Of a stretch of DNA of 24,340 nucleotides, positions 2,996 to 20,731 are shown in pieces (the first letter of the stretch is position 1; each line of letters starts with the position of its first letter). The position numbers and the translations under genes are program-made. The notes under the pieces are model-generated. The model worked only from the letters and a program-made list of their open reading frames with translations. It was not told the DNA's origin and ran no database searches. Source of the DNA: a virus; the IMG/VR virus record IMGVR_UViG_3300031631_000025, positions 1-24,340 of that record; one strand, written 5' to 3'.

Positions 2996-3025
2996 TGTCC
3001 TTATTTGTCCTTATTTGTCCTTATA
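2996..3025 (-). repeat. Three tandem 10-bp units carrying SD sequences
   Basis: The plus strand reads TGTCCTTATT, TGTCCTTATT, TGTCCTTATA. On the transcript each unit gives AAGGACA, so three SD-like sites occur in tandem between the polymerase stop (3021-3023) and the clamp-loader ATG (2990-2992). Only the proximal one is correctly spaced for initiation. Confidence 0.7.
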
Positions 3026-4406
3026 ATATAATTGTTTCTGCCTCACTTGCCCATGATTTATTGACACCAAATACATCAGCCTCTACTTCTAAGGGGACAG
3101 TTATCCAATCCCATTGTTTAGGCAACCAATGCATCATGACTTCTGCCATATTGTCTAATACATCTTGTTTTTCTTTTGGGGCAGTATCCCATATCATTTC
3201 ATCATGTATCTGCCCTATCTGCCTACTTTTCCATTTGTATTTCTGTTGTCTTCTGTCCATTTCGATATAAGATTTTAATAAGCAATGAAAAGCTGGTCCT
3301 TGGATAGGATAATTGGTTATTTCATTCTTAGACATAACCCCCCTAATCGTAAATCCTGTAACAGTTTTCATTTCCCCTTCTTTCTTATACTTCTTAACAA
3401 CAGCTTTTCTCCAATTACCATAATCTTTATATCGTTTATTCCAGAAGTCATATTCAATAGATTCTATGTGATCAGTGAACTGTTTGAAATTCTTGATTCC
3501 TTTACTGATTAAATGTTCCCCCATCATTTTACCTGTAATTAATCTCTTACCATCAGTTTTCTTAAATGTGCCTTGAGCTGGCATAGCAGACAGTTTCAAA
3601 AGGGCAGGAACATTATTACCATAAAAGTCACCATAGAACTGAGCAAATACAAAACCATTTTTAGCAGCAAATCTCAATTCTTTTTCATACCCACTTTTTT
3701 CAAAATCATCTAACTTAAAAATCTCCTTTGCCATGTCCCGGTGCATATCCCCATGAACAATATCATAAATAAGTGTTTTGTCTTTTGTGATACATCCAGC
3801 ACCCCTAACCTCAACGCCACTATAATCTGCTGCTACAAGTTGATGTCCTTTTCTTGGTCTAATTGCTTTTCTTACTAATTTCTTTTGTAATTTATCCCTC
3901 TTCGGATTATTGTGAAAGTTAGGATCAGAACTGCTGGAACGGTATGTCTTCACCTTGTGTAGAGGAAACCCTGGTCTTAGGAAACCATTTACCTGTTCCT
4001 TAAGGAATCCCTTAATAAAAGTATTGTTAACTATATAAAGTTTCTTATATTCACTAATTAGTTTAAGATCAGGAACATCTTTAGAAAGTATATCTAAAAC
4101 AGCAGCACTTACTGATGGGTTTCCTTTTTCTGTTTCAGCAAGAACAGGTAATTTCATTTTCTTAAAAAGAACAGTACCTAATTGGGAATCAGAACGTATC
4201 TTAACAGTCCCGAAAACTTGTTTCCATTTGTTGCCTAATTTAGAATCCTTAATCTTATCTTCAAGTACATTCAGTTTTTTGGTTAAAATTACGTGTATCT
4301 TTTCACAATATTTAACATCAACACACATACCGTATTTAGTAGCTCTGTTTAACGCAATTAAACCATCATTAATAAGATTCATAGCATCTTGAGTAGTTGG
4401 TTTCAT
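3021..4406 (-). CDS. Family A DNA polymerase, polymerase domain only (split gene, C-terminal part)
   Basis: The 461-residue protein carries the palm, fingers and thumb of a Pol I-type replicative polymerase but no exonuclease. Motif A is VAADYSGVEVR with Asp194, motif B is RFAAKNGFVFAQFYG (Arg245, Lys249, Tyr258), and motif C is QIHDEMIWD (His401, Asp402), so both catalytic Asp residues are present. The N-terminal 150 residues look like thumb sequence (GMCVDVKYCEK is the usual start of that part). Its ATG overlaps the stop of the upstream UDG-exonuclease gene in ATGA, so the two are translationally coupled. Phage polymerases of SPO1 type have UDG-like, exonuclease and polymerase parts in one chain; here the chain is divided exactly at the exonuclease/polymerase border. 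Confidence 0.93.
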   Translation of the reverse strand: MKPTTQDAMNLINDGLIALNRATKYGMCVDVKYCEKIHVILTKKLNVLEDKIKDSKLGNKWKQVFGTVKIRSDSQLGTVLFKKMKLPVLAETEKGNPSVSAAVLDILSKDVPDLKLISEYKKLYIVNNTFIKGFLKEQVNGFLRPGFPLHKVKTYRSSSSDPNFHNNPKRDKLQKKLVRKAIRPRKGHQLVAADYSGVEVRGAGCITKDKTLIYDIVHGDMHRDMAKEIFKLDDFEKSGYEKELRFAAKNGFVFAQFYGDFYGNNVPALLKLSAMPAQGTFKKTDGKRLITGKMMGEHLISKGIKNFKQFTDHIESIEYDFWNKRYKDYGNWRKAVVKKYKKEGEMKTVTGFTIRGVMSKNEITNYPIQGPAFHCLLKSYIEMDRRQQKYKWKSRQIGQIHDEMIWDTAPKEKQDVLDNMAEVMMHWLPKQWDWITVPLEVEADVFGVNKSWASEAETIIL

Positions 4407-5626
4407 TTACTTATTTCCTTTAATTGCTTCATAGCTAACATATAAGTAAAGACATTATCTAATCCACAATAAGTAAAAAGTTTTTCCATACCAAATTTCT
4501 TAACAAATTCTTCAATTCTGTTTATGGAATTAGCACCATATTTCTTAACATCAATACCAGACAAATATGGATTTGCATCTTCATCATAATTAGCTATTCC
4601 AAAATTAACATAAGTTTGAAACTTTAATCCACTTATTCCCTTTCTATTGTCCAACACATGGGCACCATTCATACTGCAATGTAGCCAACCTTCTGTATCA
4701 ACACCAATACAATGTGATGTCCAGGTGTCTTCGAATTGGGAGTTATGGCTGATTTTCTTTATGTTTCTATTTTTCATTACTTGCCCAAAGAGCTTGTCCC
4801 TAAATGGGGTGTTTTCCCAAACGTATACCTTAGTATAAGAAACAGCCACACCAGTACAAACTATCTTGTGACCTTTACGGTATGGGCGTAGTCCTGTTGT
4901 TTCATAATCAAGGGTAAATACTTTGCTTTTTCTTAATGCTTTTATAGCTTCTTTGAACTGCTTATCAGTATGGCAATAATTAATGTATTCAGTAAAATCA
5001 GGATACTCAATAAAAGGGGTATCTGTGTGTTTAATTATTCTTTCTATATCATCAGTCCAAATCTTATACGCAACATTGTCCTTCTTTTGTGCATTCACAT
5101 ACCCAGGATGAAATATTGGGCAAACATAAGCATTGTGTTGTTGATCAGGTATTATCCACCCACGCCATTTATCAATCCCACCGATTCCTTTTTTATAATA
5201 CTTACCAATAACAGACTCAACAGCACTTGCACCTAATAAAACAATCATCTTTGGCTTGTATTTTTTAATAGCACTTTGTACCCTTTTTCTACAACAATCT
5301 ATTTGATATGAAGTGACTGTTTCATTTTCTTTAGGAAGACAATTAATAGCATTTAAGGAAATACCATCATTGAATAAACTAAAATTAAATCCTTTTAATT
5401 TACTTTGTAATAAATGTCCTGCCCCATTTGTCCAAAGTTTATTATTTTGGTCTTCTTGTTCCGTAGGAAAGTTCCCAATAAACATCACTTTCTTTTTGAA
5501 CTTTCCTACGGGATTGAGTTTTGGATTTTTCCCATTTCTATACAAACCACAAGAAGCACAAGACAGTAACTTGCCTTTCCTGATATGATCTGTTTGTAAT
5601 TCATTAGTATCAAAGAAGTCTTCCAT
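4403..5626 (-). CDS. UDG-superfamily domain fused to 3'-5' proofreading exonuclease (split polymerase, N-terminal part)
   Basis: Residues 1-200 resemble the family 4/5 uracil-DNA glycosylase fold seen in SPO1-type DNA polymerases. The four 4Fe-4S ligands appear conserved (CASC at 23-26, NCLP at 96, C111 or C112), LLGASAV follows, and motif 2 is FHPG (His173). Motif 1, normally GE-x-PG, is GNFPT here, so glycosylase activity is doubtful. Residues 235-407 form a DnaQ-like exonuclease: Exo I LDYETTGL (Asp240, Glu242), Exo II HNSQFED (Asn295, Asp300), Exo III YCGLD (Tyr386, Asp390), all intact. It would proofread for the polymerase encoded immediately downstream with a 4-base overlap. The start lies 4 bases after the clamp gene's stop. 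Confidence 0.88.
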   Translation of the reverse strand: MEDFFDTNELQTDHIRKGKLLSCASCGLYRNGKNPKLNPVGKFKKKVMFIGNFPTEQEDQNNKLWTNGAGHLLQSKLKGFNFSLFNDGISLNAINCLPKENETVTSYQIDCCRKRVQSAIKKYKPKMIVLLGASAVESVIGKYYKKGIGGIDKWRGWIIPDQQHNAYVCPIFHPGYVNAQKKDNVAYKIWTDDIERIIKHTDTPFIEYPDFTEYINYCHTDKQFKEAIKALRKSKVFTLDYETTGLRPYRKGHKIVCTGVAVSYTKVYVWENTPFRDKLFGQVMKNRNIKKISHNSQFEDTWTSHCIGVDTEGWLHCSMNGAHVLDNRKGISGLKFQTYVNFGIANYDEDANPYLSGIDVKKYGANSINRIEEFVKKFGMEKLFTYCGLDNVFTYMLAMKQLKEISK

Positions 5627-5630
5627 AGGT

Positions 5631-6653
5631 CTATTCCCCAGACATTAATCTAAACATATGATTCCAATTACCAAAACTGAATTTAATCTTTTTATTCTCT
5701 TTATCTATGTGGCAACTATCAGTGACTTTCAACATATCAATAAAGAACTTACTACTCACACTGAATGTAAAAGAATCACCTATGTATTTAATTTTAGTCT
5801 TTTTGGTATAATGACCTACTTTTCCTATTCCTTTAATAATAATTAAATTCTTCATTAAAGTAATGTCAATCATTGCACCAAAAAGACTATCATCATTTTC
5901 ACAAAAGATAACTGCTTTATCAATGGCATTAATTAATTCCTCATGAAATTTCATCTTTTTACCAACAACATCCATAACACCAGAGATATTAGGGAATTTC
6001 TCATTAAACACCCTACATGAAAATATAGCGTTATTGTCTGCTAAGAAAGAAACCCATGAGTCAGTTAAGCTGTATTTAATTGCATTGAAGTTTCTTAAGA
6101 ATTTAACTGAATCAACTGGTATAAGAAATTCACCAAAGATTTTACCATTTAATTTATAATTAGTTGCCCTTTTATTGTCCGTACTTTCCACCATATCATT
6201 CTTCACATGAATACATGTCAATAACGGTTTAGATAGGTCTTTAGTGGTAGAAAACGAACAAAACAACAAAGCCTCAATTAAATTCTTAGGAATTTTTTTC
6301 CAGATATGTTCTGTGTTAATCTCGTTTAAAGGTAATTGGATTTCTTTTTCTAATTTAATTCCTGCACTTTCCCCCTTACCTATCCCGATTAATAATTCAT
6401 TATCTTCTTGTCTTAAGTTAATATTATCTGTTTTATTGCTGATTTTATTCAGCAATGTGTAGATCTCTTTAGCACTAACGGCACCAGTAACCCCAGACTT
6501 AAATAATGTGCTTATAGAAATACTGTCATTATAAGTCACTATTCTATCTTCCATGAAGGCAAAACTGGTACTTTGTTTAATGTTATCTGATGTTGATAGT
6601 CCCGGTTTAACAATATCTAATGCTTTAATTAATTCTGTTTTACTTATCTTCAT
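5631..6653 (-). CDS. DnaN-like sliding clamp (beta-clamp fold)
   Basis: This 340-residue protein is about the length of a bacterial beta clamp. Its parts match that fold: N-terminal KISKTELIKALDIVKPGL, an RIVTYNDSISIS strand pair near 40, GAVSAKEIYTLLNKI, a second repeat with FLIPVDSVKFLR, and a third domain containing FTFSVSSKFFIDMLK and the end FSFGNWNHMFRLM. I recall proteins with a VKPGL and Y-ND-x-I start as phage DNA polymerase III beta-like. It should form the ring that tethers the split polymerase and be loaded by the AAA+ protein at 2078-2992. The start has AAAGGACAT upstream and overlaps the preceding gene in ATGA. Sequence identity to true DnaN is probably low. Confidence 0.75.
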   Translation of the reverse strand: MKISKTELIKALDIVKPGLSTSDNIKQSTSFAFMEDRIVTYNDSISISTLFKSGVTGAVSAKEIYTLLNKISNKTDNINLRQEDNELLIGIGKGESAGIKLEKEIQLPLNEINTEHIWKKIPKNLIEALLFCSFSTTKDLSKPLLTCIHVKNDMVESTDNKRATNYKLNGKIFGEFLIPVDSVKFLRNFNAIKYSLTDSWVSFLADNNAIFSCRVFNEKFPNISGVMDVVGKKMKFHEELINAIDKAVIFCENDDSLFGAMIDITLMKNLIIIKGIGKVGHYTKKTKIKYIGDSFTFSVSSKFFIDMLKVTDSCHIDKENKKIKFSFGNWNHMFRLMSGE

Positions 6654-8475: not shown

Positions 8476-9372
8476 TTATTTAAGTTTGTAAATGCCTTCT
8501 TTAACAGAAAGAATATCGAAATTAACTAACGCTTTTGTCATATAGGTGCAAGCACTTGTAGCCGTTGGGTTACTGGAACCCCCTTGTTCAACAAAATTAT
8601 CATCAGATACAGAAAGAAGATCAGACATTGTAAAGCCCTTTTTACCTAAACTTTTAATTGTTTCTGCAATTACATCAGGACGTCTAATTGCTGAAACCGT
8701 CTTTTTAGGTGCTTTGACTTTCGGTGCATCTTCAATTCCAAGAATTTTCAGCATTTTTGGTTTCAACTGACGGGGGCCTTGTAGTCCTTTAAACCCATCA
8801 AGTCCTTTTCTGAGTTTCTTAAATTCAGGGTGTTCAGCAACAATGGCTTTAAGTTCAACCAATTTTCCTGTTTGTTGAACAAGTGTATTAAGATCAGTTT
8901 CTATTTCCTCATCCCCAACTTCTTCTTTAACTTCCTTTTTTTCCTTTTTTTCCTTTTTAGTTTTAGTTTTCTTTTTAGTTTTCTTTGGTTTTTCTTCAGG
9001 TTCTTCTTCTTCATCTTCTTCAGGTTCTTCTTCTTCATCTTCTTCAGGTTCTTCTTCTTCATTTTCTTCAGGTTCTTCTTCTTCATTTTCTTCAGGTTCT
9101 TCTTCTTCATTTTCTTCATTAAAATCAGGGGTGCAATCTAATGTTTTAAACACATTAACTGTTAGTTCAGAAAGAGTTCCCATATCATCTTCTTCTACGA
9201 ATCCAGCAGCTTCAATGATTTTTTCTTTTAGGGTTTCAGCTTTAACTGTTTTCCCCGTTTTAATTGCAGCACCACCTTTACTGTCCTCAAGTTCACACAC
9301 ATTACATAAATCTTTAGCGACCTTGATTAAGTCACTACGTCCAATTTCTTTTACCTTTTTTGCTTTTGCCAT
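8476..9372 (-). CDS. Protein with acidic octapeptide repeats and adjacent Lys-rich block, 298 aa
   Basis: The start at 9372 (MAKAKKVKEIG) is fixed by AAGGAGAAGT upstream. A GTG further upstream at 9444 would lie at the predicted transcription start and is rejected. Residues 1-80 are ordinary and contain CNVC. Residues 86-127 are five copies of the octapeptide EENEEEEP or EEDEEEEP, and residues 128-150 are a Lys block (KPKKTKKKTKTKKEKKEKK). The C-terminal 100 residues look folded, with a possible winged helix (IRRPDVIAETIKSLGKKGFT). The charge-segregated layout suggests a flexible tether, DNA mimic or histone/SSB-tail-like module. It is the first gene after a strong promoter and leads the polymerase operon. 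The function is unknown. Confidence 0.8.
   Translation of the reverse strand: MAKAKKVKEIGRSDLIKVAKDLCNVCELEDSKGGAAIKTGKTVKAETLKEKIIEAAGFVEEDDMGTLSELTVNVFKTLDCTPDFNEENEEEEPEENEEEEPEENEEEEPEEDEEEEPEEDEEEEPEEKPKKTKKKTKTKKEKKEKKEVKEEVGDEEIETDLNTLVQQTGKLVELKAIVAEHPEFKKLRKGLDGFKGLQGPRQLKPKMLKILGIEDAPKVKAPKKTVSAIRRPDVIAETIKSLGKKGFTMSDLLSVSDDNFVEQGGSSNPTATSACTYMTKALVNFDILSVKEGIYKLK
8993..9117 (-). repeat. 24-bp tandem repeat, about five units, inside a coding region
   Basis: Each unit reads TTCTTCAGGTTCTTCTTCTT plus CATT or CATC on the plus strand and encodes the acidic octapeptide. Units differ mainly at the single base that swaps Asn and Asp codons, so the array looks recently expanded. The reverse-frame ORFs it creates are artefacts. 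Confidence 0.85.
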
Positions 9373-9446
9373 TTTACTTCTCCTTAATTTGTTTGCCTTC
9401 TTTACTTCAATTCGTTTACTACCATAGTAGACTTCGACATACACAT

Positions 9447-20098: not shown

Positions 20099-20731
20099 TT
20101 AATCATCAGTATACAGTTTTTGTGCTAAATTTATATACAACTCATACTCATTTATTTCTTTTTGAGTATACTTGTTATTTATTCCTATTTTTTTAAACAT
20201 ATTTTTCCATTCTTGTATTTTATGGACTTCACATCCTATTTTCAATGTATCTTTTTTGCAGATACAAATAAAGTGACGTGTTCCTTGTATTTGTAGTGGG
20301 GATGTTTCCCAGGCATCGCCAAAAACTCTGGTATTTCCATAAACACAGGCATAGCCATAAACTCTGGCATTGCCATAAACACATGCATTTCCATAAACAC
20401 ATGCAGTTCCATAAACACATGCAGTTTCACAAACACATGCAGTTCCACAAACTCTGGCATTGCCATAAACTCTGGCATTTCCACAAACTATGGTAGTTCC
20501 ACAAACTCTGGCATCGTCGTAAACTCTGGCATCGTCGTAAACTCTGGCATCGTCGTAAACACATGCATCGTCACAAACCCAGGCATAGTTAAACTGACTT
20601 AGGTTTTTTTCATTCTCAATAAATCCACCAAGATCACCAATTGTAATATTTTTAAATGATTTCAATGCTTTTATTCTATAAAGAATTTTTCCGTTGATGT
20701 TTTTTCGTTCTTTTGTTAGTTCAAACTTCAT
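20099..20731 (-). CDS. Hexapeptide-repeat (left-handed beta-helix-like) protein, 210 aa
   Basis: Residues 1-50 form a conserved cap (KFELTKERKNINGKILYRIK, then GDLGGFIENEKNLSQ). Residues 51-142 are a run of hexapeptides of the type D/G-D/N-A-x-V-x/Y (ACVYDD, ARVYGN, ACVCET), about 15 units, the pattern of left-handed parallel beta-helices. A C-terminal alpha/beta part (HFICICKKDTLKIGCEVHKI) follows. Proteins with this cap and repeat set are common in phages and prophages; their function is not established to my knowledge. Many Cys residues sit in the repeats, unusual for the family. The start carries the shared leader plus a shared first eight codons (see 23450-23665). Confidence 0.85.
   Translation of the reverse strand: MKFELTKERKNINGKILYRIKALKSFKNITIGDLGGFIENEKNLSQFNYAWVCDDACVYDDARVYDDARVYDDARVCGTTIVCGNARVYGNARVCGTACVCETACVYGTACVYGNACVYGNARVYGYACVYGNTRVFGDAWETSPLQIQGTRHFICICKKDTLKIGCEVHKIQEWKNMFKKIGINNKYTQKEINEYELYINLAQKLYTDD
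20305..20580 (-). repeat. 18-bp imperfect tandem repeats encoding hexapeptides
   Basis: Units such as CATAAACTCTGGCATTGC and CATAAACACATGCAGTTC recur with an 18-base period in runs of near-identical copies. The runs suggest local duplication and conversion. They generate long reverse and shifted ORFs that are not genes. Confidence 0.8.

Follow-up and report, generated by a model that had tools for sequence, protein, structure and literature searches.

Isolated phages with a UDG-exonuclease-polymerase architecture that we examined mostly carry it as one fused chain (ZHS, LysYB1, Tlacuache, MAR10 and PMBT14), as does the uncultured genome ctfzr933. Edwardsiella phage vB_EpM_ZHS and Vibrio phage MAR10 (Mardecavirus) share with the locus described here the domains, their order, a glutamate in the Exo II motif and the gene neighbourhood, with a clamp gene before and a clamp loader gene after the polymerase. 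However, their polymerases are single chains of 876–884 amino acids, only about 25% identical to ours, and that of MAR10 is without the aligned Fe-S cysteines. The isolated Rhizobium phage RHph_TM39 (Kleczkowskaviridae) resembles our locus in encoding UDG-exonuclease and polymerase in two adjacent genes, there with a 1-nt overlap; its first chain (623 amino acids) is some 200 residues longer, and the sequence is so distant that this split probably arose independently. For the OM43 phages MEP401/402, too, a family A polymerase divided between two ORFs and conserved across the group was described (PMC10580990); there, unlike in our locus, the cut lies within the PF00476 polymerase domain, a small ORF stands between the parts and no UDG domain was reported; the authors considered an intron. 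Proofreading in trans by a separate subunit is known from the alpha-epsilon-clamp assembly of E. coli Pol III (PMC3642679), which is like the enzyme proposed below in this respect but combines a family C polymerase with a DEDDh exonuclease and shares, as a system, no common descent with our pair. Finally, the large fragments of Bst and E. coli DNA polymerase I have the exonuclease and polymerase fold seen in a fused relative of our locus (L010), but in a single chain with no UDG-like domain.

The DNA analysed here (the window, 24,340 bases) is an entire linear IMG/VR virus record and therefore probably represents only part of a phage genome. In the order of transcription, its minus strand encodes a sliding clamp-like processivity factor (5631–6653), a UDG-like and 3'-5' exonuclease protein (P0001, 407 amino acids, 4403–5626), a family A polymerase (P0002, 461 amino acids, 3021–4406) and an AAA+ clamp loader subunit (2078–2992), each directly adjoining the next. 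The clamp-like protein, found at the same position in most relatives, had no Pfam match and was identified from PHROGs (phrog_947, 1.1e-24), while the clamp loader matched both phrog_5846 (1.5e-62) and Pfam DNA_pol3_delta2; the exonuclease and polymerase halves each matched phrog_17. The exonuclease and polymerase ORFs lie in different frames and overlap in the tetranucleotide ATGA (4406–4403, minus strand), which contains the last codon (TGA) of the former and the first codon (ATG) of the latter, with a Shine-Dalgarno-like AAGGA (4416–4420, minus strand) 9 nt ahead of this ATG. At the border we found no tRNA, no Rfam group I intron and no intervening base, and an intron or intein at this place was rejected, the window having neither an Rfam match nor an insert there. 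A pattern scan for strong promoters or terminators between the two genes stayed at chance level (15 found versus 18.9 expected), and no terminator was found by pattern scan on the minus strand. The coordinates and domain reading of an earlier note on this DNA were thus recovered, as was its statement that no intron, intein or insertion separates the genes. Its label “SPO1-type” fits the UDG-like, exonuclease and polymerase domains and their order, but not their distribution over two polypeptides, and the nearest fused isolates by sequence and gene order are ZHS and MAR10. Repeats were seen elsewhere in the window: a 10-bp unit (TGTCCTTATT, plus strand) present in 2.9 copies fills the gap between the polymerase stop and the clamp loader start (2996–3024), a 24-bp tandem array (5.4 copies, 98% matches) at 8476–9444 codes for a protein with the highly acidic repeat EEEEPEEN/D, and an 18/36-bp array at 20099–20731 codes for a protein with YdcK-like beta-solenoid repeats (Pfam, 3.2e-14).

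The first chain combines a family 4-like UDG domain (Pfam UDG, 3.2e-14, residues 41–184, 5075–5506, minus strand) with a DEDDy-type exonuclease domain (about residues 215–407, 4406–4984, minus strand; Pfam DNA_pol_A_exo1, 2.2e-9, residues 218–345). A Foldseek search with the P0001 model likewise matched family 4 UDG and the Klenow exonuclease domain. Residue conservation was scored in alignments of 109 exonuclease and 122 polymerase sequences, and the exonuclease catalytic positions D240, E242, E299, Y386 and D390 were kept across the former (one row without the last two columns). The Exo I (D-x-E) and Exo III (Y-x3-D) motifs fit the DEDDy pattern, whereas Exo II (N-x3-D) carries E299 in place of the aspartate found in Klenow. 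This glutamate is invariant (109/109), and ZHS and MAR10 have it in their fused enzymes too; it therefore does not mark the split forms as decaying, although it could reduce exonuclease activity. Four cysteines (C23, C26, C96 and C112) are invariant in the alignment as well (109/109); going by the spacing in Thermus UDG, we take them to be the expected 4Fe-4S cluster ligands of a family 4 UDG. Sequence and fold searches grouped the domain with family 4 UDG and UdgX, but its motif 1 (GNFPTEQED versus GEAPGxxED, in general form GE[AG]PGxxED) and motif 3 (HPG versus HPS) are degenerate in the window and deviate in many relatives too. We infer that it serves as a structural Fe-S domain, and its glycosylase activity is doubtful here.

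The second chain gave a strong PF00476 (DNA_pol_A) match (1.9e-43, residues 55–445) and carries motif A (D194, E199), motif B (R245, K249, F254, Y258) and motif C (H401-D402), which, judged by sequence, qualifies it as a family A DNA polymerase. Its catalytic positions vary little or not at all overall, and none of the 122 relatives with a full polymerase, split or fused, deviates at D194, E199, K249, F254 or D402. The earlier assertion that all catalytic residues are present therefore holds for Exo I, Exo III and the polymerase, but not for the Exo II aspartate or for UDG motifs 1 and 3. Several relatives show peculiarities of the polymerase gene itself: inteins of ~350 amino acids interrupt the ORFs of L142 and L161–L164 near the conserved YRSSS motif (about position 156 of P0002), that of L142 with a weak HNH match in addition; in L080 a duplicated N-terminal polymerase fragment (66 amino acids, 3965–4267) precedes the complete copy at 4564–5952; and in the Bacillus phages Goe26 and BSP7 (L025, L203) the gene is interrupted within the polymerase domain, as expected for SPO1-like introns.

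Structure models bear on the place of the border in the fold. The exonuclease chain of the window (AlphaFold2, mean pLDDT 91.4) is predicted to end in a helix of residues 380–406, while in the fused relative L010 (mean pLDDT 91.8) a continuous 52-residue helix (378–429) spans the exonuclease/polymerase border. The L010 model matched Bst Pol I over 555 residues (Z 38, rmsd 3.1 Å). Since the predicted L010 helix runs over the border, the cut would fall inside the helix between the exonuclease and polymerase domains.

About 200 loci were recovered by scanning viral and genome contigs, and copies among them were then removed; the exonuclease half alone as a single-sequence query gave no matches on viral contigs, but an alignment query did find relatives. 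The non-redundant set contained 122 relatives whose polymerase was full-length, 107 of them split and 15 fused; this ratio is not a census, because resemblance to the window decided which loci were collected. The best matches to either half among phage isolates were only about 27% identical. In all split loci the exonuclease chains end and the polymerase chains begin at about one alignment point, at the border of the two domains, and dN/dS values of about 0.03–0.31 in both halves indicate strong purifying selection on each. We found no earlier report of this split clade in the open-access literature, where absence is no proof. The fused relatives and the conserved split that had been proposed as a check were thus both found, and the split proved stable, as had been supposed.

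The border itself could in principle be an artefact or be bridged during translation. In the window, the exonuclease and polymerase frames are adjacent and an indel where they meet could fuse them, as expected from an assembly or sequencing frameshift in a single gene; an assembly error is refuted by the more than 100 split loci from many samples, which show all three relative frames and often whole genes between the halves, and we give this explanation practically no weight. The overlap of the two genes would also be compatible with programmed frameshifting, by which some fused protein would be made besides the separate chains. However, no slippery heptamer is present at AGT AAA TGA, and other loci have the halves in every frame or with genes between, making such frameshifting highly improbable. 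A recoded stop codon at the border was rejected as well: exonuclease genes end in TGA (52), TAA (51) or TAG (9) with mixed frames, and no single recoding could therefore join the two proteins.

The spacing of the genes varies widely among the split loci: some pairs overlap, by at most 20 nt, while others are several kilobases apart, with many distances of 100–3,900 nt and a single one of about 5.3 kb. The pair lies within 60 nt in 51 of about 110 loci, and 22 of these 51 close pairs have a start-stop overlap of −4 or −1. The intergenic space frequently holds other genes, coding for N6/N4 and C5 methyltransferases, ThyX, Mom, NADAR, CsrA, MazG and HD proteins, so that the junction appears from its gene content to be a cargo slot and overlap coupling one solution among several. 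The coupled translation suggested in the earlier note thus agrees with the ATGA of the window and with the overlaps of the close pairs, but is not general, and the 1–5 kb of other genes found between the halves in several relatives argue against a general need for it.

The cargo also bears on whether the gene was simply broken by a homing endonuclease, intron or intein, the split being a side effect of such a mobile element as in split T4-like polymerases. Cargo is often present at the junction, with an HNH match in one locus (L011) among the inserts scanned and an HNH-like ORF upstream of the polymerase in another (L012, in which the exonuclease end lies outside the sequence examined), and inteins occur elsewhere in the polymerase gene. 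Against this origin, about half of the split loci (the close pairs counted above) have no insert, the cargo consists mainly of methyltransferases, ThyX and nucleotide-metabolism genes, and the window contains neither an insert nor an intron nor any Rfam match. We consider a mobile element improbable as the explanation of the split; it may have caused the first fission, but is not what maintains it.

Despite the variable spacing, the pair was never found unlinked, which had been named as an outcome that would speak against a two-subunit enzyme: both genes always lie on the same strand, at most about 5.3 kb apart. The polymerase gene followed the exonuclease gene in 78 of the 80 loci found through the exonuclease half, and the remaining two comprised the locus with the polymerase about 5.3 kb away and a contig ending soon after the exonuclease gene. 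Conversely, no locus found through the polymerase lacked the exonuclease among those with more than 1 kb of upstream sequence. A clamp gene was found in 94 of the 104 testable loci, and in 103 of 112 a gene for the clamp loader lies no more than 1.5 kb downstream, giving the order clamp-exonuclease-polymerase-loader in most loci where it could be tested.

Quick trees rooted with the fused polymerases of isolated phages placed fused forms on the deepest branches and other fused lineages nested among split ones. The fused/split label required six changes on the polymerase tree (126 rows) and five on the joint exonuclease and polymerase tree (88 rows), where five were also forced by the starred branches. 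By these sequence trees, the simplest history would comprise one old fission followed by about four re-fusions, in L010, in the group of L068, L059, L073, L074 and L079, in L188 and in L143; the number of events is approximate, because many deep forks are weakly supported and the sequences that fix the root are distant. One transition appears to be recent: the DNA of the fused L010 and the split L191 is about 90% identical to either side of the junction, which in L191 carries an N6/N4 methyltransferase gene between the two halves. Taken together, the split of this UDG-containing family A phage replicase is real, old and stable.

A reading that dispenses with a two-subunit replicase would make the UDG-exonuclease protein an independent repair nuclease that merely shares an operon with a polymerase lacking proofreading. 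The distance of up to about 5.3 kb between the genes would suit it, and a UDG-like domain of the family 4 fold could act alone in repair. However, the constant linkage on one strand, mostly in the order clamp-exonuclease-polymerase-loader where testable, and the fusion of the same domains in the outgroups, on basal branches and in several nested lineages argue against it. The exonuclease active site is invariant while UDG motifs 1 and 3 drift, which suggests that proofreading rather than uracil removal is the function that has been kept. We regard the repair nuclease as unlikely, albeit the most serious of the rival explanations. Instead, we think it likely that the two genes encode a two-subunit, Klenow-like, UDG-containing family A replicase that proofreads in trans, for which we infer the physical complex, the trans proofreading and the docking on the clamp.

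The suggestion of docking comes from the end of the exonuclease chain, which is exactly [LFIP]PF in 34 of the 107 split loci (LPF in 32 of these), against 12 of 3,514 other ORFs of the loci (Fisher p about 1e-44, relatedness ignored). These (L)PF tails are encoded by 13 different codon strings, the preceding residues vary freely, with mostly Y, E or N at position −6, and the trait required at least 14 changes on the tree of split forms. The published clamp-binding motif has the form Qxx(L/M)xF; in the E. coli epsilon subunit the exonuclease domain is immediately followed by QTSMAF (PMC3642679), the sequence in Hda is QLSLPL, and in PolC the motif stands at the very C-terminus (PMC12309361). 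The LxF part of this motif fits the (L)PF tail, but its glutamine does not. The tail thus resembles the end of a sliding-clamp-binding motif, which makes docking on the clamp a good hypothesis, the alternative being a peptide that binds the polymerase chain. It is conceivable, though we lean slightly against it, that after the fission the proofreading subunit became a clamp-tethered trans exonuclease through a tail repeatedly evolved or lost in the clade, so that a family A enzyme would have converged on the DnaQ-clamp arrangement of bacterial Pol III. The exonuclease chain of the window ends in KEISK and has no (L)PF tail, so that by its sequence the clamp tether does not apply to it. A similar ending, AEDIPF, is found in the fused polymerase of Serratia phage Tlacuache (L024, 4082–6574).

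We propose that the ancestral enzyme was a single UDG-exonuclease-polymerase chain, and that one ancient cut would have fallen inside the long helix linking the exonuclease and polymerase domains. Selection would have kept the halves as a non-covalent enzyme, proofreading in trans with the adjacent clamp and clamp loader. In the window, translation of the polymerase is probably coupled to the exonuclease gene by the ATGA, with the AAGGA in front of its start as an aid. The exonuclease C-terminus set free by the cut would in many relatives have evolved the (L)PF tail, probably docking on the clamp much as epsilon does in E. coli Pol III, and where this tail is absent, as in the window, the chains would have to depend on direct contact.

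Family A replicases are treated as single chains, with the primer end shuttling within one protein. In this large clade of uncultured phages, the exonuclease appears to have been cut from the polymerase, both parts kept, and the two re-joined several times at the same point. The fused L010 and the split L191 would provide a natural matched pair for the worth of a covalent link to fidelity and processivity. The split clade also lets one ask whether a clamp-binding tail can replace that link, and may show how a Pol III-like subunit boundary can arise.
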